This document shows positions 34,285-47,297 of a DNA stretch of 50,529 bases, piece by piece. Below the pieces are notes generated by a model. That model saw nothing but the letters and a program-made list of their open reading frames with translations. It did not search any database and was not told the origin of the DNA. A program made the translations under genes and the position numbers. How positions within the stretch are numbered: the stretch's first letter is position 1; each line of letters begins with the position of its first letter. Source of the stretch: Oscillospiraceae bacterium (GTDB lineage Bacteria > Bacillota > Clostridia > Oscillospirales > Oscillospiraceae). Where the stretch lies: positions 1 to 50,529 of the forward strand of contig JAJPYE010000026.1 of NCBI GenBank assembly GCA_021205095.1, in the 5' to 3' direction.

Positions 34285-34649
34285 GGGGCTGTAATGGTTT
34301 CGACGGGGGTGTGGGGGCGAGATAAGCGGGCGGATGACCCGGCCATCCTTAAAACCGGGAACTTTAAAAATTAACTGAGAACGATAATTTCGCTCTGGCC
34401 GCCGCTTGAGGCGAGCCCGTCCAGCCTAGGAGCGCTGCGGCCTAGGATCTGGGCGTGGATTAGCAGCGTCCGTGCGTGCGTGTTGCTTCGAGCGCACCAT
34501 GAAAAAGAAGCTACCTGACCTGAAGGGCCTGCTGGCTAGCCCCCAGGAAAGGGAATCGCGCTGAAAGGCGCAAAAATAACCACCTGCGCCCGGAGAAGGT
34601 TTCGCTGAAATGCTTTCGGACAGGGGTTCGATTCCCCTCAGCTCCACCA
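34285..34649 (+). ncRNA. ssrA: Transfer-messenger RNA (tmRNA)
   Basis: The 5' end GGGGCTGTAATGGTTTCGACGGGG and the 3' end GGGGTTCGATTCCCCTCAGCTCCACCA pair as the tRNA-like acceptor and T arm; CCA is encoded. The tag frame at 34377-34409 reads E-N-D-N-F-A-L-A-A-A-stop, so the tag ends LAAA; its first residue may be the Thr or Glu codon before Asn. The pseudoknot region follows the tag. Length 365 is normal. It rescues stalled ribosomes together with SmpB. Confidence 0.97.
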
Positions 34650-35015: not shown

Positions 35016-35306
35016 TTATTTTTGCTTTTTCTTTTGAACTGGTGGAGTCTGGTTCAGCGGCCAACTGCATTGGGGGCAGTTTTTCATGCCGATGATGTTT
35101 TTGAAAATCGGGTAGCCGCATTTGGGGCATCGGCACCAGGTGCATACAATGATGAGCGCCAGCACGAGCAGCACCAGACTGACGACATACAGGGGGTCAC
35201 GCCAGCCGGTATCCTTAAGGGCAAGGGAGGCGACGGTGATAATGATAATTCCTGCCGCAATCAGGCCCTCTGCAATGGCGCGGGCAATTTGAAATCTTGT
35301 TTTCAT
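35016..35306 (-). CDS. Small membrane protein with zinc ribbon
   Basis: 96 residues, function unknown. Two hydrophobic segments (about 10-30 and 40-60) precede a cytoplasmic CPKCGYP-N12-CPQCSWP zinc ribbon and a KKKQK tail. It overlaps the upstream gene by ATGA, so the two are cotranslated. The name is descriptive only. Confidence 0.7.
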   Translation of the reverse strand: MKTRFQIARAIAEGLIAAGIIIITVASLALKDTGWRDPLYVVSLVLLVLALIIVCTWCRCPKCGYPIFKNIIGMKNCPQCSWPLNQTPPVQKKKQK

Positions 35307-35611
35307 TGGTCGGTTTCCCTTTCCTCATAGCGCAGGTTCAGCGGGATTTGGGGGAGATTAAACTCCACCTTATAGGCGGCCTGACGTCCCTCCGGGGAAT
35401 CTGCAAACCAGAAGTCCAGATAAACCACGTCCAGCCCGTCCGTCAGCATCTCGCGGAACACAAAATCATAATTCATGCGGCTTTCGGCGGCGAATTGCGC
35501 ATAGGGGACGGTGCGGGGGATGATTTCCTCCACGCCCAGGGCTTCGACCTTTTCGGATAATTCCCGGACGCGGGCTTGGGGCGCTTTGATGGTTGCGTGT
35601 AGCTGAAGCAT
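35303..35611 (-). CDS. Unrecognised 102-residue protein
   Basis: No family recognised. The sequence is soluble, with a helical start (KAPQARVRELSEKVEALGVEEI) and a mixed second half (MNYDFVFREMLTDGLDVVYLDFWFAD, YKVEFNLPQIPLNLRYEERE). There is no signal peptide. AGGGGT lies upstream. Codon use looks like its neighbours, and coupling to the zinc-ribbon gene supports it being real. Confidence 0.6.
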   Translation of the reverse strand: MLQLHATIKAPQARVRELSEKVEALGVEEIIPRTVPYAQFAAESRMNYDFVFREMLTDGLDVVYLDFWFADSPEGRQAAYKVEFNLPQIPLNLRYEERETDQ

Positions 35612-35680
35612 AGATGTCAGACCCCTTCCTGGTATTCAGTACTTGCGTTCATGCCCTTTATCATGCAATTTATGTGCCAA

Positions 35681-38449
35681 TCAGCGCATTTCATCCAGAG
35701 GCAGCGTCAGAAGAAAATAATAGACCTCTGAGGGCTGAAGCTCCAGGGACAGCTGCCGGCATGCGGTGTCCAGAATACTGCTGACCTGCTGATAAAACGT
35801 ATAGTTGTTGGTGATCAGATCCAAATCATCCTCAGGCATGGGCATGGCGTTTTCGTTGTTGAGCCGGTCGAACATGGCCGCAATATGGATATAGATGCGC
35901 ACCTGCAAATCCGAGGACAGGGCCTGGGTGCAGAGCTTTCGTATCTCCGCCACCACGAAATCTGCCTGAACGGCCACCGCCTCCGGGTCGAGCGTGGGGG
36001 CGAAATAATTGATTCGCTGGGCGAGCTGCTCAAAGCGGATATGCAGCGGCAGGTCGTCATGAGACCAGTGAGCCTCTAAATCTGCGGACTTCCAGCCCTT
36101 GAGCAGCAGCGTGACACGGTTGATGCCCTCCTGACTGGTGATGTTTTCCATGGTCAGAAACGGCACGCCCTTGATTTTGGGATCCGTAAAGCCAATCACG
36201 AGCTTCAGGCGGCTGCCGAGCTTCTGGGCCATTTCATAGATGTTTTCCTTTAACCCGATGGGAATGATCTCCGCGTTCATGTATACTGCGGGAAATTGTA
36301 GGAGATACTCCCGGATCCGTCGGGCGCAGCCGGTGCCGGTAATGCAGCAGGTCAGAATGACGCTCTTGCCGCCCGCTGTCTCGTCTTCCTCAGCCACATA
36401 CCGCAGGTAGCTGCCGGTCTGCCGGAGGATGCGAGTCATATATATCTGATAGGAGGCCAGGCTATTGCGGAAAATGGTGTCGATGTCGTCGTCCGTTGTG
36501 ATGATGGATTTGCAAAGCTCCAGAGCCATAGCTGTGCTCATACCGGGAATGACCCGGCAGCGGATGCCTGCGTCGTTTTTCAGGTGCTGCTCGTAGTATT
36601 CGATATTTTCTGAATCGGTCAGCACGATAACGCCTTTGCCCTCGTCGGTCTGTTTTGCGAGTGCGCAAAGTTGACTCATTGCCTGTTCCGGGGAGAGGCC
36701 GAAGTAGACGTCTACAGCATGGGCGATTTTTGTGAGAAGCACCTGGTTTACAAAATCCGCGATGCTGGACGCGGTGGATTTTCCGTGGCCCATGATGATG
36801 AGGCCAACCATTTTCTTGTCATCCGCTTTTTCGTAAGTCTCCAGGAGCATGGCTATCACGGTGGCTTCATCGTCGGTTATCGTGACGTTAAGCGCCCGTT
36901 CCAGCATGGGGACGATTTTTTTCACAAAACGAAGCTTTTCGGTGTATGCCTCCGCAAGGGAGTTGATGTCGGGAATAGGATAGGCTTGATTTACCTGATT
37001 ATGGAATTTAAGCTGCTGCAAAAACAGGGCCAGCGTCTCGTAAATAATCTCTGGATAGGTGCAGTTGAAGCGATTGGAAGCCAGTCGGATAAGCTCCTCC
37101 GCCGCGGCCCGCACTTTTGAGGTGACAGATTCAAAAATAGCAAACTGTTCCTGCGGCCCGGAGGACAGATTGGAAAAATTCCGAATCAGATCCATGGACA
37201 CAAGATAACCGATTTCCTGGGGCGGCAGGTTTTCGCTGCTGTATTTGCCGATGCGCTCCTCGATGAAGCCATAGAGATCGCCGGCGGACTTGGTATCCTG
37301 GGCGGAGGCATCCTGTTCGGGGGAGATGATAAGGCTGTGCTGCTGGATCCAGTTGTCCAGATACTCCTCCACCTCCGGGTCGGATTCAGTGTTTTGCAGA
37401 TTGCGGGAGAGGTTGCTGCTGCCAAATTCGATAAAGGGCGGTGGGCCTGATGGATTGCTGCGATAGTCCAGATAGCCTCTTGCGCAGCAGAGCTGGATCT
37501 CATTTTTCAGGTCGCCGATGTTGGCGTTGCTGTGGTATACAGCCAGAAGCCGCAGGGCATACGGGGAGATGCGAATGGGAAGATTTAGCCGCTGGGCCTC
37601 ATTTTGAATAAAGTGCAGAACCAATGCGAGTCGCTCCTTGATGGGGCGCTCCTGGAGTGTGGGGATCTCGATGACCATAGGGATGCGGCGACGGAAGGTA
37701 TTCAGAAGCGCCGCTTCCGGGTTTTCGGTCGTAGCGCCGATGACCATGAGGTTTGCGTATTTATCCTGGGAGCTGCCGAGGCTCCGATACATCCCGCGGT
37801 CGAGGAGCGTGAAAAGCATTTCCTGCCCAGTGGCAGGGAGACGGTGAATTTCGTCCAGAAAGAGAACGCCGCCGTCGGCCTCGCTGACAAGGCCAGGATG
37901 GTCGGTATCCGCCCCGGTGAACGCGCCGCGAATATAGCCAAACAGTTGGGACAGCAGAAACTGGGGATTTTCCGCGTATTCCGCGCAGTTGAATATGATG
38001 AAGGGCTTTTCCTTTGTGCCTGCCGGACGGTTTTGGTTCATGTAGCGCCAGATTTCTTCTGCCAGAAGAGTTTTGCCGACGCCGGATTCTCCTATCAGGA
38101 GCATATGCATTCCATTGGGAGGATAGGAGGCGCCGGCCTTGGCGAGCTGTATCTGTAAGGCCAGGCTGCCGGTAGCGCCGATGATGCGGTGAAAGGCAGG
38201 TTCCTCTATCGGCTCCTCCTGGCTGATGCTTTTGTCGGGAAGCGGCAGGCAGTAATGAATGGGACGGCTGCCCACCTTTCGAAGCATCTGGTCGGCGCAG
38301 AGGGAGTTTAGCGCCGCTGCCGCGTCGTTCTGCCAAATGCCCATACCCTCGGCAACCTGGCGGGCGGTCAGGCCGACGGCCTGCTCATCCTCTGACAGCT
38401 TTCCCAGGGTTTCGGAAACGTATTGCAAGGTTTGCTCTTTAACGCTCAT
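35681..38449 (-). CDS. LevR/MtlR-type sigma-54 activator with PTS domains
   Basis: 922 residues. An N-terminal winged-helix DNA-binding part (about 1-80) precedes the AAA+ domain: Walker A GESGVGKT (120-127), the sigma-54 contact loop GAFTGA (175-180) and Walker B VLFLDEI (about 195). Then come a PTS regulatory domain, an EIIA-mannose-like domain with GLIIMGHGKSTASS (about 555, phosphorylatable His), a middle EIIB-like segment (VILTCCITGTGCARRI) and a C-terminal PRD (HIRFEQLAQRINYF). This is the LevR class, in which PTS phosphorylation tunes activation of sigma-54 promoters. Its targets are probably the two -24/-12 promoters nearby. It overlaps rpoN by ATGA. Confidence 0.94.
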   Translation of the reverse strand: MSVKEQTLQYVSETLGKLSEDEQAVGLTARQVAEGMGIWQNDAAAALNSLCADQMLRKVGSRPIHYCLPLPDKSISQEEPIEEPAFHRIIGATGSLALQIQLAKAGASYPPNGMHMLLIGESGVGKTLLAEEIWRYMNQNRPAGTKEKPFIIFNCAEYAENPQFLLSQLFGYIRGAFTGADTDHPGLVSEADGGVLFLDEIHRLPATGQEMLFTLLDRGMYRSLGSSQDKYANLMVIGATTENPEAALLNTFRRRIPMVIEIPTLQERPIKERLALVLHFIQNEAQRLNLPIRISPYALRLLAVYHSNANIGDLKNEIQLCCARGYLDYRSNPSGPPPFIEFGSSNLSRNLQNTESDPEVEEYLDNWIQQHSLIISPEQDASAQDTKSAGDLYGFIEERIGKYSSENLPPQEIGYLVSMDLIRNFSNLSSGPQEQFAIFESVTSKVRAAAEELIRLASNRFNCTYPEIIYETLALFLQQLKFHNQVNQAYPIPDINSLAEAYTEKLRFVKKIVPMLERALNVTITDDEATVIAMLLETYEKADDKKMVGLIIMGHGKSTASSIADFVNQVLLTKIAHAVDVYFGLSPEQAMSQLCALAKQTDEGKGVIVLTDSENIEYYEQHLKNDAGIRCRVIPGMSTAMALELCKSIITTDDDIDTIFRNSLASYQIYMTRILRQTGSYLRYVAEEDETAGGKSVILTCCITGTGCARRIREYLLQFPAVYMNAEIIPIGLKENIYEMAQKLGSRLKLVIGFTDPKIKGVPFLTMENITSQEGINRVTLLLKGWKSADLEAHWSHDDLPLHIRFEQLAQRINYFAPTLDPEAVAVQADFVVAEIRKLCTQALSSDLQVRIYIHIAAMFDRLNNENAMPMPEDDLDLITNNYTFYQQVSSILDTACRQLSLELQPSEVYYFLLTLPLDEMR

Positions 38450-39786
38450 GTGTATTGCCTTTCCCGTATGCGGCTTTCTGGAATATGAAGCTGCTCACGA
38501 TATTTGGCGACTGTCCGGCGTGAGATGGGGATGCCCTCCTGACCGAGCAACTCGGCCAGTCTTTGGTCAGATAGCGCCCGCGTTTCGTTTTGAATCAGGG
38601 CGGCGATTTTTTGCTTGACTTCTACCGATGAGACGGCCCTGTCTGTGTCCAACGCATAGCCTGTAGAGAACATCCGTTTCAGTGGAACGACCCCCGCCCC
38701 AGTTTGAATATAGCGGTCGCTGACGCAGCGGGAAACAGTGGAAGGGTGTATATTCAGAGCCTCGGCGGCGGCTCGCATGGTGACAGGCTTCAATGCGCCG
38801 CCCAGAAAGTAGTCTGACTGGAGATGCAGAATATAGTGGAGCAGCCGCTCTACAGTGTTTTTTCGGATGGTCAGCTCCTGTATTAGATCCACGGCCTCCC
38901 GGTATTTTCGATGCAGATAGTATTCCGTGTCATTATCCAGCGCGTCCTGGGCCTGTATATACTGCAAAAGCCCGGCGTCGATGGAAAGAAGGTCGCAGCC
39001 GCTGTGGAAGGTGAAGTGCAGCTGCCCGTTTTCCGCTGTCACGGTGATTTCCGGCTGGATGTAATGCGTGACATAGCGGGAGGAAAATTCTGCGCCAGGG
39101 TATGGATTGAGCGAGGCGAGATGTTCCAGGTGACTGCGTACCTGCTGGGGCGTAGCCTTGCACTGGGCCGCTATTTTTTGATAGTTCCGGGAGGCCAGCA
39201 GGACTGGGTCAGTATGCAGAAGCCTGCGCAAAAGCGCTGGGTCGTATTTCGTCTGATTTGCCTGTAAAAGCAGACATTCTTCGAGATTTTCTGCGCCGAC
39301 GCCTGTCGGGGAAAAGGTCTTTATCAGACGCAGCGCGGCTTCTACATCCTCGGCGGGCAGGCCCTCAAGTCTTGAAATCTCGGCGGAGGATTCCCGACAG
39401 TAGCCGTTGTCATCCAAATAGTCGATGAGCCGGTAGCCTGCCCGGCGAACGACGGGGCTTGCGGGGGACTGTCCCAGCTGGAGCCGCAGATGCTCCCGCA
39501 GGGATGAGAGTGTATCAGAAGCGGCAAACACAGGGGTCGGCTCTGCGGTCTTCTTCTCTCGGCGGCTCTGCCAGGATAGGAGAGAATCCGCAGCATATAA
39601 TTGTGTGTGAATCTCCAGCTCACTGTGATATTCCAGGAAGGGATTTTCCAGGGACTGACGCTCCAGAAACTGTGAAAGGGCGGTATAGGACATGGGAAGA
39701 AGCTGGAGGCTTTTCATCATGACCGGGGCCATGACAGGCCGCTGTTCCTGTTTTTGTTTCGATGTTTGAGAAAAATAAAAATCCAT
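38446..39786 (-). CDS. rpoN: RNA polymerase sigma-54 factor
   Basis: 446 residues. Region I is glutamine- and leucine-rich (MAPVMMKSLQLLPMSYTALSQFL). The core-binding region (SLREHLRLQLGQSPAS; LIDYLDDNGYC; FSPTGVGAENLEECLLLQ) follows. The C-terminal HTH (MRAAAEALNIHPSTVSRCVSDRYIQT) and the RpoN box SRRTVAKYRE, which reads the -24 element, complete it. It starts at ATG 39786, just before its own operon partner's targets, and forms an operon with the LevR-type activator. Placing rpoN in a PTS cluster suggests a dedicated regulon. Confidence 0.96.
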   Translation of the reverse strand: MDFYFSQTSKQKQEQRPVMAPVMMKSLQLLPMSYTALSQFLERQSLENPFLEYHSELEIHTQLYAADSLLSWQSRREKKTAEPTPVFAASDTLSSLREHLRLQLGQSPASPVVRRAGYRLIDYLDDNGYCRESSAEISRLEGLPAEDVEAALRLIKTFSPTGVGAENLEECLLLQANQTKYDPALLRRLLHTDPVLLASRNYQKIAAQCKATPQQVRSHLEHLASLNPYPGAEFSSRYVTHYIQPEITVTAENGQLHFTFHSGCDLLSIDAGLLQYIQAQDALDNDTEYYLHRKYREAVDLIQELTIRKNTVERLLHYILHLQSDYFLGGALKPVTMRAAAEALNIHPSTVSRCVSDRYIQTGAGVVPLKRMFSTGYALDTDRAVSSVEVKQKIAALIQNETRALSDQRLAELLGQEGIPISRRTVAKYREQLHIPESRIRERQYT

Positions 39787-39800
39787 CGAATGACCCGCCT

Positions 39801-39817
39801 TTGGCACAGTAATTGCA
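39801..39817 (+). promoter_or_regulatory. Sigma-54 promoter (-24/-12) before ptsH
   Basis: TTGGCACAGTAATTGCA: GG at 39803-39804, ten bases, GC at 39815-39816, matching TGGCAC-N5-TTGC. It faces ptsH and lies in the rpoN 5' leader. The leader to ptsH is about 130 bases. A weaker sigma-A candidate (TTGCTA 39880-39885, 16 bases, TATAAA 39902-39907) may also serve ptsH. Confidence 0.82.
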
Positions 39818-39845
39818 TTTATTTTTGTAGAATCACGTCGAGTCA

Positions 39846-39873
39846 AGTATACCATTTGTATTATAAATGTCAA
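39846..39873 (-). promoter_or_regulatory. Sigma-A promoter of rpoN
   Basis: On the minus strand TTGACA (39873-39868), 16 bases, TATACT (39851-39846), with TGG before the -10. The predicted leader crosses the sigma-54 site at 39801-39817. Confidence 0.82.
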
Positions 39874-39955
39874 GTTTGTTTGCTAAAATTTGTGCAATTC
39901 ATATAAAAATCTGCGTTATATCTATAAGTTTAAACAAAATGAGAAGGGAGTTGCC

Positions 39956-40228
39956 ATGGAAGTTAGAAATGTAACCATTATCAATCCGACCGGTCTGCAC
40001 GCGAGACCTGCCTCGGAATTTGTCAAAAAAGCTGCCAGCTTTAAATCTACCGTGATGGTAAAAAACCTTTCCACGGGGCGCAGTGTGAACGCCAAGTCTA
40101 TCGTCATGCTGCTGACGCTGGCGTTGACGGAAGGCACGGAAATAGAAATCACCACGACGGGCGCAGATGAAGCGGAGGCGGCGGACACGTTGAAGGCGAT
40201 GGTAGAGGGTGGTTTCGGTGAAGTCTGA
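39956..40228 (+). CDS. ptsH: Phosphocarrier protein HPr
   Basis: 90 residues. HPr passes phosphate from enzyme I to IIA proteins. His15 sits in NPTGLHARPASEFVKKA. Ser48 in NAKSIVML corresponds to regulatory Ser46 of Gram-positive HPr, the HPr-kinase target, rather than a Crh/NPr form. AAGGGAG is 5 bases upstream of ATG 39956. It overlaps ptsI by 11 bases. Confidence 0.95.
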   Translation: MEVRNVTIINPTGLHARPASEFVKKAASFKSTVMVKNLSTGRSVNAKSIVMLLTLALTEGTEIEITTTGADEAEAADTLKAMVEGGFGEV

Positions 40229-41915
40229 AAGGGTTGCTGGCATCCCGGTATCGCGAGGCATCGGGATAGGGCCTGTGTTTTTGTTTCAGCCATACGAACC
40301 GAAGCGTTCTGAGAAAAAGGCTGAATCCGCGGCAGTGGAGGCCGAAGTGCTCGCGTCAGGCATGGCACAGGCGGAGGCGGAGCTTACGGCGCGCATTGAA
40401 AAATGCGAGGCTGGTTCCCCAGAGGCAGAAATTCTGGACGCACATATGGAGATCCTTCACGACCCATGTCTTGCGGAGGATATTCAGGCGCGCATTGACA
40501 GCGGCGTATGCTGCGCTGCTTCCGTCTGGGATGCATATCAGGCCATGATTGATATGCTGCTTGAGGTAGAAGACCCTGTGTTCCGGGGGCGGGCGACGGA
40601 TATGGTGGATGTGAGAAATCGTTTGCTTCGCTGCTGTGAAGGTTTGCAGGAAACGGATTTTTCCGCCCTGCGGGAGCCAATCGTGCTGGTGGCCAATGAG
40701 CTGACGCCATCGGATACCATATCGCTCCCCAGAGATATGCTGGTAGCCATCGCTGCGGAGACGGGTACGAACACCTCTCATGCGGCCATATTGGCCCGCT
40801 CGTGGGGAATCCCCGCTGTTTTGGGCGTGCCAGGGCTTGTAGCGGCGGCGCAAAACCGGGAGGGTGCAATCGTTGACGCGGTGGATGGGGCAGTGATATT
40901 TGACCCGGATGAGGAGACCCTTGCCCTATATGCGGCCCGGCGGCAGAATATGAACGCGGAGGCTGCTGCGGATGCCGCTGCCGTCCGGCAGCCCGTCGTC
41001 ACCACGGACGGAGTGGCTGTGGCCACGGAAATCAATGTGGGGAAGATAGAGGACATAGAAACAGACGCCGCCGGGTATGCCGACGGTGTGGGCCTGTTTC
41101 GTTCCGAATTCTTATTTATGCAGGCGGAGCAGCTGCCGGATGAGGAGGCACAGTACCGGGCGTATTCTAAGGTGCTGAAAGCCTTTGGAGAACGGCCTGT
41201 TATCCTGCGGACGCTGGATATTGGCGGGGATAAGGAGCTGAGCTATTTTTCCCTGCCTAAGGAGGAAAATCCGTTTTTAGGTCTGCGGGCTTTGCGGCTG
41301 TGCTTTGCCCATGAGGACATCTTCCGCACGCAGCTTCGGGCGGCGTGCAGAGCATCTGCCGAGGGGAACCTGTGGCTCATGTTCCCAATGGTGTCGAGCC
41401 TCGATGATTTCCGGCGGGCCAAGGCCATCCTGCGGGATGTGCAGAACGAGCTGGGGGCCGAAGGGATTTCCTGTGATCCGCAGATGAAGGTTGGCATTAT
41501 GATCGAGACTCCCGCCATTGCCCTGATGGCGGAGGCTGCGGCGAGGGAAACCGATTTTGCCAGCATTGGCACCAACGACCTGTGTCAATACACCTGTGCC
41601 GCCGACCGCATGAACACCACGGTCGCGCCGTATAACGCGCCGGAAAATCCCGGTTTCCTGCGGCTTGTGGCTCAGATTGCCAGGGCCTATACCCAAGAGG
41701 GAAAGCCCCTGGGCGTTTGCGGAGAGCTTGCGGCGGATCCCAGGCTGGGGCCGGTGTTGGTGGGTATGGGGATTCGCTCCCTCAGCGTCAACGGTGCTTC
41801 CCTGGGGTCGGTGCGCCGAAACCTTTCCGGCAAGTCCTGCGCGGATATGGCCGCCCTGTCGGAGCAGGTGCTGGCCTGTACCACCATCCAGGATGTGAAA
41901 GACATACTGGGATAA
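40218..41915 (+). CDS. ptsI: PTS enzyme I
   Basis: About 565 residues. It takes phosphate from PEP and gives it to HPr. The swivelling domain carries the active His in GTNTSHAAILARSWGIPAVLG. The PEP-binding barrel has GVGLFRSEFLFM, GGDKELSYF, FLGLRALRLCFAHEDIFRTQLRA, MVSSLDDFRRAK, IGTNDLCQYTCAADR and the C-terminal GVCGELAADP. The likely start is GTG 40218, 8 bases after GAGGG; GTG 40209 is an alternative. It overlaps ptsH by 11 bases. Confidence 0.95.
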   Translation: MKSERVAGIPVSRGIGIGPVFLFQPYEPKRSEKKAESAAVEAEVLASGMAQAEAELTARIEKCEAGSPEAEILDAHMEILHDPCLAEDIQARIDSGVCCAASVWDAYQAMIDMLLEVEDPVFRGRATDMVDVRNRLLRCCEGLQETDFSALREPIVLVANELTPSDTISLPRDMLVAIAAETGTNTSHAAILARSWGIPAVLGVPGLVAAAQNREGAIVDAVDGAVIFDPDEETLALYAARRQNMNAEAAADAAAVRQPVVTTDGVAVATEINVGKIEDIETDAAGYADGVGLFRSEFLFMQAEQLPDEEAQYRAYSKVLKAFGERPVILRTLDIGGDKELSYFSLPKEENPFLGLRALRLCFAHEDIFRTQLRAACRASAEGNLWLMFPMVSSLDDFRRAKAILRDVQNELGAEGISCDPQMKVGIMIETPAIALMAEAAARETDFASIGTNDLCQYTCAADRMNTTVAPYNAPENPGFLRLVAQIARAYTQEGKPLGVCGELAADPRLGPVLVGMGIRSLSVNGASLGSVRRNLSGKSCADMAALSEQVLACTTIQDVKDILG

Positions 41916-41936
41916 AATTTATCTTTTTTTGTCGCA

Positions 41937-41953
41937 TTGGCACGCTTTTTGCA
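41937..41953 (+). promoter_or_regulatory. Sigma-54 promoter (-24/-12) before the PTS permease
   Basis: TTGGCACGCTTTTTGCA: GG 41939-41940, ten bases, GC 41951-41952, a near-perfect match to TGGCACG-N4-TTGCA. The predicted start near 41964 is about 25 bases before the IIA gene, which has its own GGGGGAG site. Confidence 0.92.
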
Positions 41954-41988
41954 TATATTTTTATGAACGCAAAATGGGGGAGAAAGCT

Positions 41989-42438
41989 ATGATAGTTGTT
42001 TTTGACAGAGACCATATCGTCCCGGAACTGCCAGGCATCGTGTTGCTGTCCCATGGGCCGTTTGCCGGAGCCTGCGTGGAATCCGTTGCCATGCTCCAGG
42101 GGGCGCAGGAGAACCTGGCTGCCTTTGGACTTGAGCCGGCGGATGAACTTGCGGACTATACCGCCGCTGTGCTGGACGCGGTGCGGGCATTTCCTGACGG
42201 CAGCATTATTATGGTGGATTTATACGGCGGCACGCCCTGTAACCAGATGATGCTGGCGGCGTTGAAGGAGGGGCTGGACTTACACATTATCAGCGGGTTT
42301 GGCCTTCCTATGGTGGTGGATGCCTGCTCCCTGCGGAGTGCGGAGCTTAAGGGCGACGAGCTGCTCGCGCAGATTGAGGAGATTGCCAAGGCCGGTATCA
42401 TCAATGTTTCCGATATGATACATGGCAGAAACGCATAA
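41989..42438 (+). CDS. PTS mannose-family IIA component
   Basis: 149 residues. The phosphorylated His is His22 in GIVLLSHGPFAGACVES. A second hallmark is GSIIMVDLYGGTPCNQ. It is a free-standing IIA, whereas many mannose-family systems fuse IIA to IIB. It would receive phosphate from the HPr encoded upstream. The start is set by GGGGGAG at 41976-41982. Confidence 0.94.
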   Translation: MIVVFDRDHIVPELPGIVLLSHGPFAGACVESVAMLQGAQENLAAFGLEPADELADYTAAVLDAVRAFPDGSIIMVDLYGGTPCNQMMLAALKEGLDLHIISGFGLPMVVDACSLRSAELKGDELLAQIEEIAKAGIINVSDMIHGRNA

Positions 42439-42483
42439 CATAAAATTATTTTTCAATTTTTTTCTTTGGGAGGATACTTGCTT

Positions 42484-42969
42484 ATGAGAGAGCCCACGCT
42501 GATTCGTGTTGATTTTCGTTTGCTGCACGGAATGGTGGCGACAAAATGGGTGCGTTCCCTGAACATTGTGAATATTTATATCATAGACGACAGCGTCTAT
42601 GCGGACGAGTTTCTGCGTCAGGTATTCGATTTGGCAAAGCCTGTGGGTACGAAGCTGGAGTTTTTCACCGTAGAGCAGGCTGCCGCCAAGTGGATGGATG
42701 GAGGCTTTGAGGAAGACCCCAAGGAGCCGTCCCTGGTGCTGATTAAAAATGTGGACAGCGCCAAGCGTCTTTACGACGCGGGGATGAAGTTCAGCAAGCT
42801 GCTGATTGGAAACTCCGAGCCTGACCGCAAGAAAAAGCAGAAGCATTTTAATAACGTATATTATTTCGACGATAATGATGCCCGCACCATCAACAGCATG
42901 GCCGATGCCGGCGTTGAAATCACGCTACAGGAGCAGGAGGGCACCAAATCAACTACCTGGGTAAGGTGA
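42484..42969 (+). CDS. PTS mannose-family IIB component
   Basis: 161 residues. His15 in RVDFRLLHGMVATKW is the IIB phosphorylation site (family RIDDRLIHGQV). It passes phosphate to the incoming sugar. GGGAGGA (42468-42474) is 9 bases from ATG 42484. A small hairpin, AGAATGT-N8-ACATTCT (43008-43029), lies between it and the permease gene. Confidence 0.93.
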   Translation: MREPTLIRVDFRLLHGMVATKWVRSLNIVNIYIIDDSVYADEFLRQVFDLAKPVGTKLEFFTVEQAAAKWMDGGFEEDPKEPSLVLIKNVDSAKRLYDAGMKFSKLLIGNSEPDRKKKQKHFNNVYYFDDNDARTINSMADAGVEITLQEQEGTKSTTWVR

Positions 42970-43068
42970 GAGAGAAATACTTTAGCAAGGTATGAGCCGT
43001 GTGAGTGAGAATGTGGGTACGGACATTCTGATTCATATACTACTCTAAAACGAGGAGGAGACACGTTT

Positions 43069-44661
43069 ATGACAATTACAATCGTACAGGCATTGCTATT
43101 GGGATTCTACATCATGATAGTTTCTGCCATGGTTCCTGGTCCTGCGCTTTGGCACAATGCGCTGACCACCTCTCTTTGGGTCGGTCTGATAATGGGCGAT
43201 ATACCCGGCGCCATTATGATCGGCTCCACCCTGGCCCTGATTTACCTTGGCGCTACCGGCGCAGCCGGCGGCGTTGTGGTGCAGGATGAGGTGGCTGCCA
43301 CCCTGGTGACGGTTCCGCTTGTTCTGGCAACAGGCCTGGACATCACCGCCGGCATCGCTATCGCGATTCCTGTTGGCCTTGTCTGCGCCCAGCTGAACAA
43401 CCTTCAGGAGCTGGTTATGTCCATTCCTGCCCACATGGTTGACCGCTTCATCGAAAAAGGAAATGACAAGGGCATTGTGTTCTGCAACATTGCCATGCCT
43501 TACATCCTGCGTATCTTTGTCCGCTGGCTGCCTCTGAGCGCGCTCATCTTTGTGGGCGGCACCGTGGCCGAGGGCATTGCGGATGCAATTCCTGAGGTGC
43601 TGACCAATGCGCTGTCCGCTGTGGGCGGCGTGATGCCCTCCGTGGGTCTTGGCATTGTCATGTACACCATGGGCAACGCAATCTTCATCCCGTTCCTGAT
43701 TGCGGGCTTCTTCCTGGTGGAATACACCGGGGTGTCCACCATCGGTGCCGGACTTGTAGGCGCGTTCCTCGCATTCCTGTATTATATATTCGTCACGAAG
43801 CCCAAGCGGGACGCGAATCCCGTCCCTGCCGCAGAGGCAGTGGAGGTGCAGCATATCCTGACGAAGAAGGATGTGAACAAAACCTTCTGGACATGGATTC
43901 TCTTCGGTATCAACTGCGAATCCTGGGAGCGTAAACTTGGCATAGGCTTTGGCTCCGCTCTGAAGCCCAGCCTGAAAAAGCTCTATCCCGATCCTGAGGA
44001 TTACAAGGCGTCTCTGAATCGCGAGATGGAATTTTTCAACACCGAAAAATGCTTCGGCGCCTGCATTCCCGGCGTGGCTCTGGCTATGGAGGAGCAGAAG
44101 GCTCTGGGCGAGCCCATTACAGAGGACGCCATCCGCTCGGTCAAAACCGGTCTGATGGGCCCGTTCGCCGGCATTGGCGACTCTATCATGTGGGGGCCTG
44201 TCTACATCCTCTGCGTTGCCATGTGTGTTCCCGCCTGCGCCAGCACCGGCAGTTGGATCGCTGCGCTGATGCCCGTCATCGTCTTTGCGGCGGTGGGCAT
44301 TGTTATCGCATGGTTCATGTTCCGGCTTGGTTATAACAGCGGCGCTAAGTCCGCCACAACCCTGCTGCAAAACGGCATGTTTGCGGATATTCTCCCGCTG
44401 CTGACCATTTTGGGTATGTTCATGATCGGCGCTCTGGGTGCAAGCTATGTCACCGTTACCACGCCGCTGGAGTTCTCCAGCGCCACGGGTCTGAGCTTCT
44501 CGCTCCAGGATACCCTCGACTCCATCGCGCCGGGCATCCTGTCTCTCTGCACGCTGTTCATCTCTTACTTCGTCACCAAGAAGTTCAAGAACTTCCTGTG
44601 GACGTGCCTGATTATGCTCGCTATTGGCCTCGTGCTGGGCCTGCTGGGCATCATCGTGTAA
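43069..44661 (+). CDS. PTS mannose-family IIC-IID fusion permease
   Basis: 530 residues. Residues 1-255 are IIC (hydrophobic, VGLIMGDIPGAIMIGSTLALIYLGATGAAGG). Residues about 262-530 are IID (LTKKDVNKTFWTWILFGINCESWERKLGIGF, REMEFFNTEKCFGACIPGVALAMEEQKALG, GLMGPFAGIGDSIMWG). The family normally has separate IIC and IID proteins; there is no stop, frameshift or start between them here. It is followed by a hairpin and three catabolic-type genes. Confidence 0.94.
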   Translation: MTITIVQALLLGFYIMIVSAMVPGPALWHNALTTSLWVGLIMGDIPGAIMIGSTLALIYLGATGAAGGVVVQDEVAATLVTVPLVLATGLDITAGIAIAIPVGLVCAQLNNLQELVMSIPAHMVDRFIEKGNDKGIVFCNIAMPYILRIFVRWLPLSALIFVGGTVAEGIADAIPEVLTNALSAVGGVMPSVGLGIVMYTMGNAIFIPFLIAGFFLVEYTGVSTIGAGLVGAFLAFLYYIFVTKPKRDANPVPAAEAVEVQHILTKKDVNKTFWTWILFGINCESWERKLGIGFGSALKPSLKKLYPDPEDYKASLNREMEFFNTEKCFGACIPGVALAMEEQKALGEPITEDAIRSVKTGLMGPFAGIGDSIMWGPVYILCVAMCVPACASTGSWIAALMPVIVFAAVGIVIAWFMFRLGYNSGAKSATTLLQNGMFADILPLLTILGMFMIGALGASYVTVTTPLEFSSATGLSFSLQDTLDSIAPGILSLCTLFISYFVTKKFKNFLWTCLIMLAIGLVLGLLGIIV

Positions 44662-44731: not shown

Positions 44732-45724
44732 TTGGAAACAAATCGAAAGACTGCTGAACGGATTGCGTTTTCCCCTTTTTGGCGGACGGAATATTTTCCC
44801 CGGTATTTCACAGAGGATTTTACCATGGAGTTTCCGTTTGCCCCGCCGGGTATGCCCACATATTTTTCTGTTTGGGAGACAGAGCGCTGCTTCGAGTGGC
44901 TCAACCGTACCGTAAAGCGCTGGTCAGCGGAGGAAACGGCCTTTTATGGCACCCCTGACCCGGAGCAGTTCTGGGCCATCGGGCGCTGCCATGCGGAGGT
45001 TCTATGGGGCGGTCAGGAGGGGACGATGGAAAGCCAGTATTTCCTGCGGCTTCAAATGAGAGAAGGAAGGGCTGCGGCCCTGAAGCTCTGGACAGACCCG
45101 CTTTCCATGCTGCGTGCTGCCGGGCGAGAGGTTCCTGTCTTTCGCATGGATATACATGACGAAAAGGTGGACGAATATCTGGCCTCCCACCCAGCGAAGC
45201 CTGCGGCGGCGGAGCCGCCTCTGAATCATGATCCGGAGGCGAGAGAGGCCCGGATTCGCGCCAATCTTGACACAAATCGCTGCGGTGCGGAGCGGGAAAA
45301 ATACCGCGCCCTGGAAACCAATGCTCCGGCGTTCAGCGGCGGCGTGTGGTTTGTTCCAAAGGAAATGGACGGCATTGCTCATTTGCATACGCCGCAGCGC
45401 CTGGAGGGCGGTGATTTCCCGCCGGAGCTGGCCGGGCGGTGCTTTGCCTGGACAAAGGCAAGCAGCCCGTGGATGTATCGGGACACGCGCAGCGTTATCT
45501 ATCCCACGGAAAACCCTCGGTTTTATTTTGCGGAGCTGAACGGACACGGCCCCGGACGCTGGCGGGGAAACGGAGCGGACGACGGCCATTACCATCAGCC
45601 GTATCTGATGCTGATAGAGCTGGACGAGGAGGGACGCCTCCTGCGTCGGGATGAGATACTGAACCCGGTGAACAAATATAACAGCGTGAATCTGACGCTG
45701 CCTAGCTTCCCCTATTACTACTAA
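44732..45724 (+). CDS. Tandem NTF2-like (PhzA/PhzB-type) protein
   Basis: 330 residues, cytoplasmic. Two related halves: residues about 15-135 (FPRYFTEDFTMEFPFAPPGMPTYFS, then FWAIGRCHAEV) and about 185-330 (FYFAELNGHGPG, YHQPYLMLIELDEEGRLLRRDEILNPVNKYN). Each matches the PhzA/PhzB-type SnoaL-like fold, a cone with a small-molecule pocket. The start is TTG 44732, after GAGGCG; an ATG at 44825 would cut the first domain. Isomerase or binding roles for ring compounds fit, but the substrate is unknown. Confidence 0.72.
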   Translation: METNRKTAERIAFSPFWRTEYFPRYFTEDFTMEFPFAPPGMPTYFSVWETERCFEWLNRTVKRWSAEETAFYGTPDPEQFWAIGRCHAEVLWGGQEGTMESQYFLRLQMREGRAAALKLWTDPLSMLRAAGREVPVFRMDIHDEKVDEYLASHPAKPAAAEPPLNHDPEAREARIRANLDTNRCGAEREKYRALETNAPAFSGGVWFVPKEMDGIAHLHTPQRLEGGDFPPELAGRCFAWTKASSPWMYRDTRSVIYPTENPRFYFAELNGHGPGRWRGNGADDGHYHQPYLMLIELDEEGRLLRRDEILNPVNKYNSVNLTLPSFPYYY

Positions 45725-45726
45725 AC

Positions 45727-46476
45727 ATGATAAAATATGCGCTTTTCGATATGGACGGGACGCTGATTCCCATCCATCGAGCCGACTTTGAGGCGGAAAT
45801 GTTTCCGCTTTCCGAGCGTTATCTTCACCGGCATTTAAAAGACGCGGACGTGTGCCTTGCGGCCATGAAATATGCTGCGCTGCATGGCAGAGAGCATATC
45901 CGCGAGGGCGAGAGCAATGAGGATCGTTTTGAACGGTTGCTGCATGAGCAGCTTGGCGATGTACTTGCGAAAACGCTTATAGCTACACTGGAGCGATTTT
46001 ATGAGACGGACTATAACCAAATCGCTCATCTATGCCCCGATAACGGGCGCGGCAGGCGGATGCTGAACGCCGCGCTGCAAAGAAATCTGATACCGATTTT
46101 GGCCACCAACCCCGTGGCTCCGGCTGTTTGCCTGTTTGCAAGGCTTAGCTGGGCGGGGCTGCGCCCGGAGCAGTTTGCCTATTCCACCACGGCGGAAAAC
46201 AGCTTTCACATGAAGCCAAGCCCTGCGTATTATCAGGATTTACTGAATGTCGTGGGCGCGAAACCGGCGGAGTGTATTATGATAGGCAACGACACCCTGG
46301 AGGACATTCCCCCGGCGCAGGGCCTGGGCATCCGCACCTTTCTGGTGACGGATTACCTTGTGGACAGGGACGGCTCCGCGCCGACGCTTGGCCCACAGGG
46401 AGACGAAAACGACCTGCTCCGTTTTCTTGCGCAAATCAATCAAGAGGAGGAACCATCATGGCAAGAAAAGAACTGA
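45727..46476 (+). CDS. HAD-family phosphatase
   Basis: 249 residues. HAD motifs: DMDGTL (Asp nucleophile), ATN, the Lys of MKPSP and GNDTLEDI. A helical cap (YLHRHLKDADVCLAAMKYAAL) follows motif I. It probably dephosphorylates a phosphorylated metabolite, perhaps the PTS product. It begins 2 bases after the NTF2-like gene and overlaps the hydrolase by 19 bases, so all three are tightly coupled. Confidence 0.86.
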   Translation: MIKYALFDMDGTLIPIHRADFEAEMFPLSERYLHRHLKDADVCLAAMKYAALHGREHIREGESNEDRFERLLHEQLGDVLAKTLIATLERFYETDYNQIAHLCPDNGRGRRMLNAALQRNLIPILATNPVAPAVCLFARLSWAGLRPEQFAYSTTAENSFHMKPSPAYYQDLLNVVGAKPAECIMIGNDTLEDIPPAQGLGIRTFLVTDYLVDRDGSAPTLGPQGDENDLLRFLAQINQEEEPSWQEKN

Positions 46477-47297
46477 GCCTGGAGGAAAAGCTCCTGAGCT
46501 ATTCAAAATATTATTACATGGAGATGGCCCCGGCTAACCCCATCAAAATGCAGTTTATCAAGGCCGGCCCTATCGATCCGGCTCTGACCCTGCCGGCGGA
46601 GGAGATTGGCGAAAAAATGTTTGAGCCGGGCTATCTGCCCGCAGAGTTTGGCTACTGCATTTATCCGGATGGCCGCTCCTTTATGGCAAATTATGAGATC
46701 CTCCATGGCGTGACCCCGGAAATGCTGGACTGGTGGTTTGTCTGGCACTGGATTCGTCCCCGCGGCATTCCCAAGGAGCAGGGCAACCTGCGCTATAAAA
46801 TATGGTGCCCGTTGGATCACTGGGATACGGGGCGGGACGAGGAAACGGAGCGCGTGTTCAAGGATGAAAGCCTGCCCATCGCGGAGCGCAGAGCCAGGGG
46901 CAAAACCTGCTTTATCACGGAATCTCTGGATTTGGGCCAGGGGGACGAGCTGCATTATGGCAATTCCAGTGACCTGCACTATGAGGACTTCGGCCTGAGC
47001 TGGGAGAAGATAGCCCAGCTGGAGCGGCAGAACTGCAAGCTGTTTTGCGGGACCTCCAGCAATGGGACGAAAATCAATATGCACTTCGTTCGTCCACTGC
47101 TGGACGGCGTAGAGGTGCGGACGCGCTCCTGGACAGGCTACGGCGTGCGGGACGGCAAGGTCGTTAAGACGGAGATCCCCGCCATGAACGAGGAAAAGCT
47201 CATCAAAAATCTGGTTCACAACATCACCGAGTGGCAGCATTTGCAGCGGTTCCTGCCATCCCTTTACGCCGAGGAACACTGGAAGCCGGTGTACTAA
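46458..47297 (+). CDS. PhlG-type (DAPG/phloretin) C-C hydrolase homologue
   Basis: 279 residues of the DAPG-hydrolase fold. The family includes PhlG, which removes an acetyl group from 2,4-diacetylphloroglucinol, and phloretin hydrolase of gut Eubacterium. Visible: GYLPAEFGYCIYPDGRSFMANYEILHGVTPEMLDWWFVWHWIRP (His97), RYKIWCPLDHWDTG (His121), and HNITEW with His254 and Glu258 in the H-x3-E spacing of the family's zinc ligands. It may cleave an acyl-arene C-C bond. AGAGGAGGAA precedes ATG 46458. Other family substrates are possible. Confidence 0.82.
   Translation: MARKELSLEEKLLSYSKYYYMEMAPANPIKMQFIKAGPIDPALTLPAEEIGEKMFEPGYLPAEFGYCIYPDGRSFMANYEILHGVTPEMLDWWFVWHWIRPRGIPKEQGNLRYKIWCPLDHWDTGRDEETERVFKDESLPIAERRARGKTCFITESLDLGQGDELHYGNSSDLHYEDFGLSWEKIAQLERQNCKLFCGTSSNGTKINMHFVRPLLDGVEVRTRSWTGYGVRDGKVVKTEIPAMNEEKLIKNLVHNITEWQHLQRFLPSLYAEEHWKPVY

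Follow-up and report, generated by a model that had tools for sequence, protein, structure and literature searches.

The DNA considered here, a window of 50,529 nucleotides from an Oscillospiraceae bacterium (contig JAJPYE010000026.1 of assembly GCA_021205095.1), is contig 51 of a draft genome of 2.34 Mb in 66 contigs that is rated 97% complete. It carries a locus in which the gene for sigma-54 (rpoN) and a gene for a LevR-type activator form one operon, divergent from the phosphotransferase system (PTS) genes ptsH-ptsI-IIA-IIB-IICD, and in which three putative sigma-54 promoters of the -24/-12 kind (P1, P2 and P3) are placed. The features are, in order of position:

35016..35306, minus strand: 96-amino-acid open reading frame (ORF) downstream of the 102-amino-acid ORF; membrane-helix-like and CxxC zinc-ribbon-like by eye, no NCBIfam match
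35303..35611, minus strand: 102-amino-acid ORF, the first gene behind P3; no family in Pfam or NCBIfam
35664-35680, minus strand: predicted -24/-12 site P3, TTGGCACATAAATTGCA, by pattern match
35681..38449, minus strand: levR, LevR-type sigma-54 activator; AAA+ with GAFTGA, PRD and EIIA-man; H555, C702 and H855 conserved
38446..39786, minus strand: rpoN (sigma-54), by Pfam and NCBIfam; the ATG at 39786 was chosen over an upstream TTG at 39873
39801-39817, plus strand: predicted -24/-12 site P1, TTGGCACAGTAATTGCA, by pattern match; towards ptsH and inside the rpoN leader
39846..39873, minus strand: predicted sigma-A promoter of rpoN-levR, TTGACA-16-TATACT with TG before the -10, 11 of 12 matches; opposed to P1
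39956..40228, plus strand: ptsH (HPr), by Pfam
40209..41915, plus strand: ptsI (Enzyme I, EI), by Pfam and NCBIfam; exact start uncertain
41937-41953, plus strand: predicted -24/-12 site P2, TTGGCACGCTTTTTGCA, by pattern match; before IIA
41989..42438, plus strand: PTS mannose-class IIA, by Pfam and NCBIfam
42484..42969, plus strand: PTS sorbose/mannose-class IIB, by Pfam and NCBIfam
43069..44661, plus strand: fused PTS IIC-IID permease, by Pfam and NCBIfam

The divergent arrangement of an rpoN-levR operon and the PTS genes had been proposed in an initial annotation of this DNA, and is borne out by the Pfam assignments and by the 4 bases that the rpoN and levR reading frames share; the content given there for 38446..44661 is likewise correct, but the locus extends further and begins at about 35016. 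In RpoN the activator-interacting, core-binding and DNA-binding families (PF00309, PF04963 and PF04552) all score above cut-off, as does TIGR02395 (336 bits against a cut-off of 277). The Enzyme II set is of the mannose/sorbose class by Pfam (PF03610, PF03830, PF03609 and PF03613). The NCBIfam search covered RpoN, LevR, EI, IIA, IIB and IIC-IID, leaving HPr out; its matches to IIA, IIB and IIC-IID all fall under the equivalog or subfamily cut-offs and no substrate was assigned from them.

Each of P1, P2 and P3 has GG-N10-GC within a near-consensus TTGGCAC-N5-TTGCA and lies at a suitable distance from a gene and beyond its coding frame, the features by which a sigma-54 promoter is recognized in sequence. 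Two of them had been reported previously, at 39801 and 41937, as facing the PTS genes; both are present exactly there and so oriented, but a third, P3, had been overlooked and faces the opposite way. It lies directly past the levR stop and about 53 bases ahead of the ATG of the 102-amino-acid ORF, so that the two small genes at 35016-35611 would belong to the regulon. The window contains the exact sequence TTGGCAC-N5-TTGCA three times, whereas in 100 dinucleotide shuffles it occurs 0.01 times on average and at most once. With two or three mismatches allowed the window holds fewer matches than the shuffles, and thus only the exact sites are distinctive.

Genome-wide scans for TGGCAC-N5-TTGC and for other activators did not find many of either, in keeping with the earlier suggestion that sigma-54 is here a dedicated rather than a global regulator. 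A single strong match to PF00158 was found, that of LevR at 135 bits; five further frames exceed the family cut-off at just 20-30 bits (one at 34 with its neighbours), and at E 1e-15 LevR is the sole match. One copy of rpoN was found. TGGCAC-N5-TTGC occurs exactly five times, three times at the locus and twice inside coding frames on contigs 27 and 46, the latter being rejected as promoters, and the flanked pattern TTGGCAY-N5-TTGCW is matched exactly in 2.34 Mb at P1, P2 and P3 alone. On these patterns sigma-54 looks dedicated to this PTS, and we read the locus as a sigma-54 module complete in itself, serving one sugar PTS of the mannose class in a closed loop controlled by LevR, a reading to which we give a probability of roughly 0.77.

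The regulatory part of this reading is suggested by LevR itself, which has PF00158 (GAFTGA being read in the translation), PF00874 (PRD) in two stretches and PF03610 (EIIA-man); in its N-terminus, the roughly 80 residues before the AAA+ domain, there was no Pfam DNA-binding match at E 0.001. In an alignment of 30 LevR rows including that of the window, two of 31 loci having been dropped as too short, H555 is conserved in 97% of 30, C702 in 29 of 29 and H855 in 86% of 29. These residues are labelled, partly by position, as an EIIA-type histidine, an EIIB-type cysteine and the PRD2 histidine respectively; for C702 and H855 we take the domain labels, and the correspondence of H855 to His-869 of Bacillus subtilis LevR, from position and motif. 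In B. subtilis, phosphorylated IIB phosphorylates His-869 of LevR and inhibits it, and phosphorylated HPr phosphorylates His-585 and stimulates it (PMC10864463).

We infer a scheme in which the sigma-A promoter would make RpoN and LevR, and RpoN-polymerase would wait at P1 (ptsH-ptsI), P2 (IIA-IIB-IICD) and P3 (the two small genes). Without sugar, phosphorylated IIB would phosphorylate H855 in PRD2 and hold LevR off, and phosphorylated HPr would stimulate LevR through the EIIA-like H555, both by analogy with B. subtilis; sugar would drain phosphorylated IIB, and LevR, released, would open all three promoters. With EI and one HPr made from P1, the phosphate supply of LevR would depend on its own output, and in a cell lacking EI, LevR would be free of inhibition at the outset. 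The loop would be closed because this EI is the sole full one found in the genome: a search with this protein gave a full match and, apart from that, a single partial one (32% over residues 331-467), in a frame of 875 codons taken by its size and family overlap to be pyruvate phosphate dikinase.

The position of P1 adds a further possibility. As had been claimed, this site lies in the rpoN leader: the rpoN ATG follows 14 bases beyond its end, and the rpoN -10 precedes it by about 29 bases. The start points deduced from the two sets of promoter elements face one another across about 11 bases. A sigma-A consensus scan gave nine promoter-like sites in the region against 6.7 in shuffles, with no sigma-70-type promoter on the plus strand between rpoN and ptsH. 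Given this plausible geometry, RpoN-polymerase at P1 could slow rpoN expression.

A sister genome (G016), also rated 97% complete, has rpoN and levR with 86% and 94% protein identity to those of the window, the latter over residues 1-737 of 922. Nucleotide homology (88% over window positions 36239-39928) ends about 28 bases ahead of the ptsH ATG, with other genes beyond; P1 and the rpoN -35 and -10 hexamers are identical, with one spacer change. This genome gave no match to IIC-IID and none exceeding 41 bits to EI, and its rpoN has one in-frame TAG, a combination that relaxed selection on a single-purpose sigma factor predicts.

Among 35 genomes of the genus, including that of the window, rpoN is present in seven, EI above 230 bits in three (one a partial frame) and a IIC-IID relative in three, many of these drafts being incomplete, down to 64%. 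The two other genomes with EI and PTS genes (G028 and G005) gave no rpoN match, G028 gave no activator at E 1e-15, and at the same threshold none was found in six rpoN-free genomes of the genus. G028 has a different mannose-class PTS (L122) with matches to HPr-like, IIB, IICD and EI proteins and with no rpoN or strong activator. Neither sigma-54 nor EI is seen in most of the genus, which would explain the clustering of the parts, as a module would have needed to bring or keep its own.

Comparable associations occur elsewhere, which qualifies the earlier view that it is rare to find all of these parts in one locus. Plasmids of Latilactobacillus sakei, L. curvatus and Lacticaseibacillus paracasei (NZ_CP099486.1, NZ_CP123582.1 and NZ_CP048004.1) combine rpoN with a LevR-type activator gene and a PTS of the mannose class, whose first gene is annotated as IIA in two and as 'PTS protein' in the third; each stretch has a single TTGGCAC-N5-TTGC site, beginning 46-50 bases ahead of that gene. 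Several protein accessions are common to the modules of L. sakei and L. curvatus, which were therefore counted as one case; their plasmids are typed as conjugative and that of L. paracasei as mobilizable. In a metagenome-assembled genome of an uncultured Clostridia (L053), rpoN is divergent from a LevR-type gene, behind which come TTGGCACGCTTTTTGCT, the genes for IIA, IIB, IIC and IID, and one with a SIS domain. Farther along the same strand is a weak match to HPr (31%, E 1e-7); the 11-kb stretch gave none to EI. At another locus (L120) a LevR-type gene comes after rpoN, and the 9.7-kb stretch gave no match to the PTS proteins. None of the stretches read holds a second module in which rpoN, LevR, permease, ptsH and ptsI are found together, and to that extent the claim of rarity stands. 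More broadly, among 72,556 plasmid records 255 have a match to the window's LevR (any sigma-54 activator can give one), which in 18 spans 80% or more of that protein, and 222, mostly rhizobial, have a match to RpoN. The plasmid rpoN of Priestia megaterium, beside glycolysis genes, is not of the module kind, and 15 RpoN-matching records labelled as phages, of which one is a 691-kb bacterial contig and several are unannotated, were not used.

The claim of rarity is further qualified by how often rpoN lies near an activator in activator-poor genomes of the order. rpoN exceeds the family cut-off in 30 of 394 sampled genomes of the order, and was found in none of 25 genomes outside the genus in a first, nearer sample. 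Linkage was assessed in 39 rpoN-bearing genomes with activators called at E 1e-15, and the counts are descriptive, related genomes not being independent. In the 24 genomes with one or two activators, the nearest lies within 2 kb of rpoN in 10 and within 10 kb in 17 (random expectations 0.055 and 0.28); the other seven genomes all have the activator on a different contig from rpoN, which in three of them (G006, G011 and G390) starts within 0.3 kb of a contig end. In the 13 genomes with at least three activators the corresponding figures are two and four (expected 0.1 and 0.5). The remaining two genomes, G206 (L115) and G311 (L117), have rpoN without an activator at this threshold, for which we offer the reading that their sigma-54 is decaying or differently activated. 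Three genomes have two full-length or nearly full-length rpoN genes each (L104 and L105 in G403, L113 and L116 in G366, L111 and L114 in G372), with an activator about 0.5-14 kb from each; these are possibly two separate modules in one genome. Genomes with one rpoN, one activator and a single closed set of targets would allow the minimal size of a sigma-54 regulon, and any travelling of rpoN with its operon, to be tested on a module of about 10 kb.

Natural -24/-12 sites vary in sequence, and sigma-54 might therefore be general in this bacterium, with only its best-matching promoters at the locus and the others too degenerate for the pattern. With up to one mismatch TGGCAC-N5-TTGC does have 123 sites in the genome, but the reversed control pattern yields more (187), leaving no excess, and there is just the one strong activator. 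The flanked pattern TTGGCAY-N5-TTGCW with up to one mismatch similarly gives 24 sites against 22 for its reversed control; the sites examined were those among about 100 listed matches of the 123 that also fit this longer pattern. Of the 21 beyond P1-P3, 20 are covered by ORFs of 120 codons or more, leaving L186, which is without the -24 GG. GG and GC are both kept in 10, nine of them in frames of at least 177 codons; the tenth, L188, which is the weakest case, is in a frame of 131 codons whose translation looks like a secreted protein of proline-rich repeats. We consider a general role very improbable. The overlap of P1 with the rpoN promoter raises the different question of whether RpoN-polymerase bound at P1, besides driving ptsH, blocks the opposing promoter, so that sigma-54 limits its own synthesis. 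The short distances described above and the converging start points speak for such control, and both elements are kept in the sister genome; yet the overlap is common to two genomes only, and in the plasmid modules and L053 the sigma-54 site lies before IIA and off the rpoN leader, so that the arrangement is not general. Self-limitation of this kind is thus doubtful, and the overlap is a natural test case for it. The reading of the locus as a self-contained, dedicated module has to be held against several other observations. A second HPr, 50% identical, is encoded on contig 66 between frames that resemble MutS2 and UvrC, in a 10-kb stretch that gave no match to EI, and the occurrence of EI without rpoN in two members of the genus (one 64% complete) means that PTS and sigma-54 are not obligatorily tied. 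No convincing activator-binding motif is shared by the 260 bases upstream of each of P1-P3: in searches at widths of 12, 14, 16, 18, 20 and 22, with 30 mononucleotide shuffles each, the best match was equalled or beaten by several shuffles at all widths except 14, where it tied with the best shuffle and was discounted, its copies lying at the unlike distances of -64, -188 and -77. Among the three sites, the comparison with relatives covers P1 only. The site scans detect near-consensus promoters only, and ORF coverage is a guide and not proof, as it would flag P1 and P2 too (upstream extensions of the rpoN and IIA frames); the basis throughout is the sequence of the draft assembly. The decay seen in G016 rests on one 7.3-kb metagenome contig in which the levR match stops near the contig end, and a chimera or assembly error is possible.

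How the module came to be here can be approached through the other RpoN proteins of the genus. It could be an old, vertically inherited sigma-54/PTS region lost by most of the genus, since repeated loss can give a patchy pattern and the label changes on a tree cannot separate gain from loss; RpoN is also found in several other genera of the family. In keeping with this, no integrase is among the genes annotated at 35.0-47.3 kb, the part of the window to which this negative is confined; the G+C content of the module genes (50-59%) is only slightly under the 60% of the left flank; and the neighbouring ssrA was rejected as the place of an insertion, its 3' end matching nothing but itself, with no repeat or second copy of it in the window. 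Against this, the seven RpoN proteins of the genus fall in three places in a 43-row tree, at least three label changes being forced by its starred branches, and a single clade for all seven is rejected (approximately unbiased test, p 0.002); two smaller groupings, tried after viewing the tree, gave p 0.0001 and 0.02. The stem of the window's genome (G000) and G016 is long (1.65), making their placement less sure. The five readable rpoN contexts comprise three activator types and four target operons: rpoN and LevR with a PTS in G000 and without one in G016, a PAS-type activator beside a DctPQM transporter in G025, a PAS-type activator beside enoyl-CoA hydratase in G007, and a PrpR-type activator beside MmgE/PrpD, PrpF and phosphoenolpyruvate (PEP)-mutase-family genes in G021. 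Promoter-like sites facing divergent genes lie near the activator gene in G007 (TTGGCAT-N5-TTGC), G021 (TGGCAC-N5-TTGC) and G025, where A replaces the first T of TTGC; in G006 and G011 rpoN is at a contig end, with no activator on the readable side. With analogues on plasmids typed as conjugative or mobilizable as well, we think purely vertical descent unlikely. A broader proposal, that in lineages normally without sigma-54 the rpoN gene, its activator and the target operon form a cartridge that is exchanged and lost as a whole, on plasmids as well as chromosomes, rpoN decaying after loss of the operon, is tentative and in our estimate falls just short of even odds. The usual picture of sigma-54 is that of a stable regulator acting across the genome; were the cartridge proposal true, these bacteria would carry it as a local switch for an operon, and in the present case the sole Enzyme I of the cell would itself be under its control.

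The sigma-L of B. subtilis is encoded away from the levR locus and serves several regulons. Its LevR, controlling levDEFG, is like that of the window a PRD and EIIA-man protein with two regulatory histidines and a PTS as target, and has an upstream activator site (PMC10864463); the module here differs in holding rpoN, ptsH and ptsI, in its three promoters and in the fusion of IIC with IID. The RpoN-MptR/Mpt system of Enterococcus faecalis also has a LevR-like activator beside its PTS, RpoN being required for mannose use, but four activators and a disrupted fifth are described there, each upstream of its own PTS, in contrast to the one strong activator of the window's genome (PMC8262876). The Lactobacillaceae plasmids share the grouping of rpoN, a LevR-type gene and mannose-class IIA, IIB, IIC and IID; they differ in having one promoter and other gene orders and sugar genes, neither ptsH nor ptsI is among the annotations of the stretches covered, and their LevR proteins are 26-28% identical to that of the window. 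A link of sigma-54 and LevR-type activators with PTS of the mannose class is known in Firmicutes, Francke et al. describing that between sigma-54 and the mannose PTS as direct in Lactiplantibacillus plantarum and Pediococcus (PMC3162934), and the L. plantarum sigma-54 is tied to a mannose PTS as here (PMC3162934; PMC3602190). The proteobacterial rpoN cluster with ptsN/ptsO, and ptsH-ptsI-IIAMan beside rpoN in Xanthomonadales, similarly place rpoN near a phosphorelay, although this is a regulatory PTS and the passage concerned names neither permease nor activator (PMC2405797). In Clostridiales, 65% of activators control one operon and are mostly co-localized with it, there are 1 to 28 sigma-54 regulons per genome and the presence of sigma-54 does not follow phylogeny; an rpoN adjoining the activator, as in the window, is not mentioned in the excerpt (Nie et al. 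2019; PMC6615313). A description of rpoN packaged with LevR and a PTS was not found in the partially covered open-licence PMC literature. The parts are known, and what is new is a module that includes ptsH and ptsI and has three promoters on both sides of rpoN-levR.

Homologues of the 102-amino-acid ORF behind P3 were found in one of the 35 genus genomes, its own, with no match among plasmids; a structure predicted from the single sequence (pLDDT 42, pTM 0.29) was unusable, and its PDB sequence matches (adenylate kinase, E at least 0.07) are at chance level. Convergent with the P3 unit is ssrA (transfer-messenger RNA, tag ENDNFALAAA) at 34285-34649, preceded by two frames that read as SmpB-like and peptidyl-prolyl-isomerase-like. 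At the other end of the locus, after a hairpin-like sequence behind IICD, the plus strand at 44732-47297 carries genes for a PHZA/PHZB-domain protein, a HAD hydrolase and a PhlG-type DAPG-hydrolase; any link of these genes to the PTS is putative, and they may point to a phenolic or glycoside substrate.

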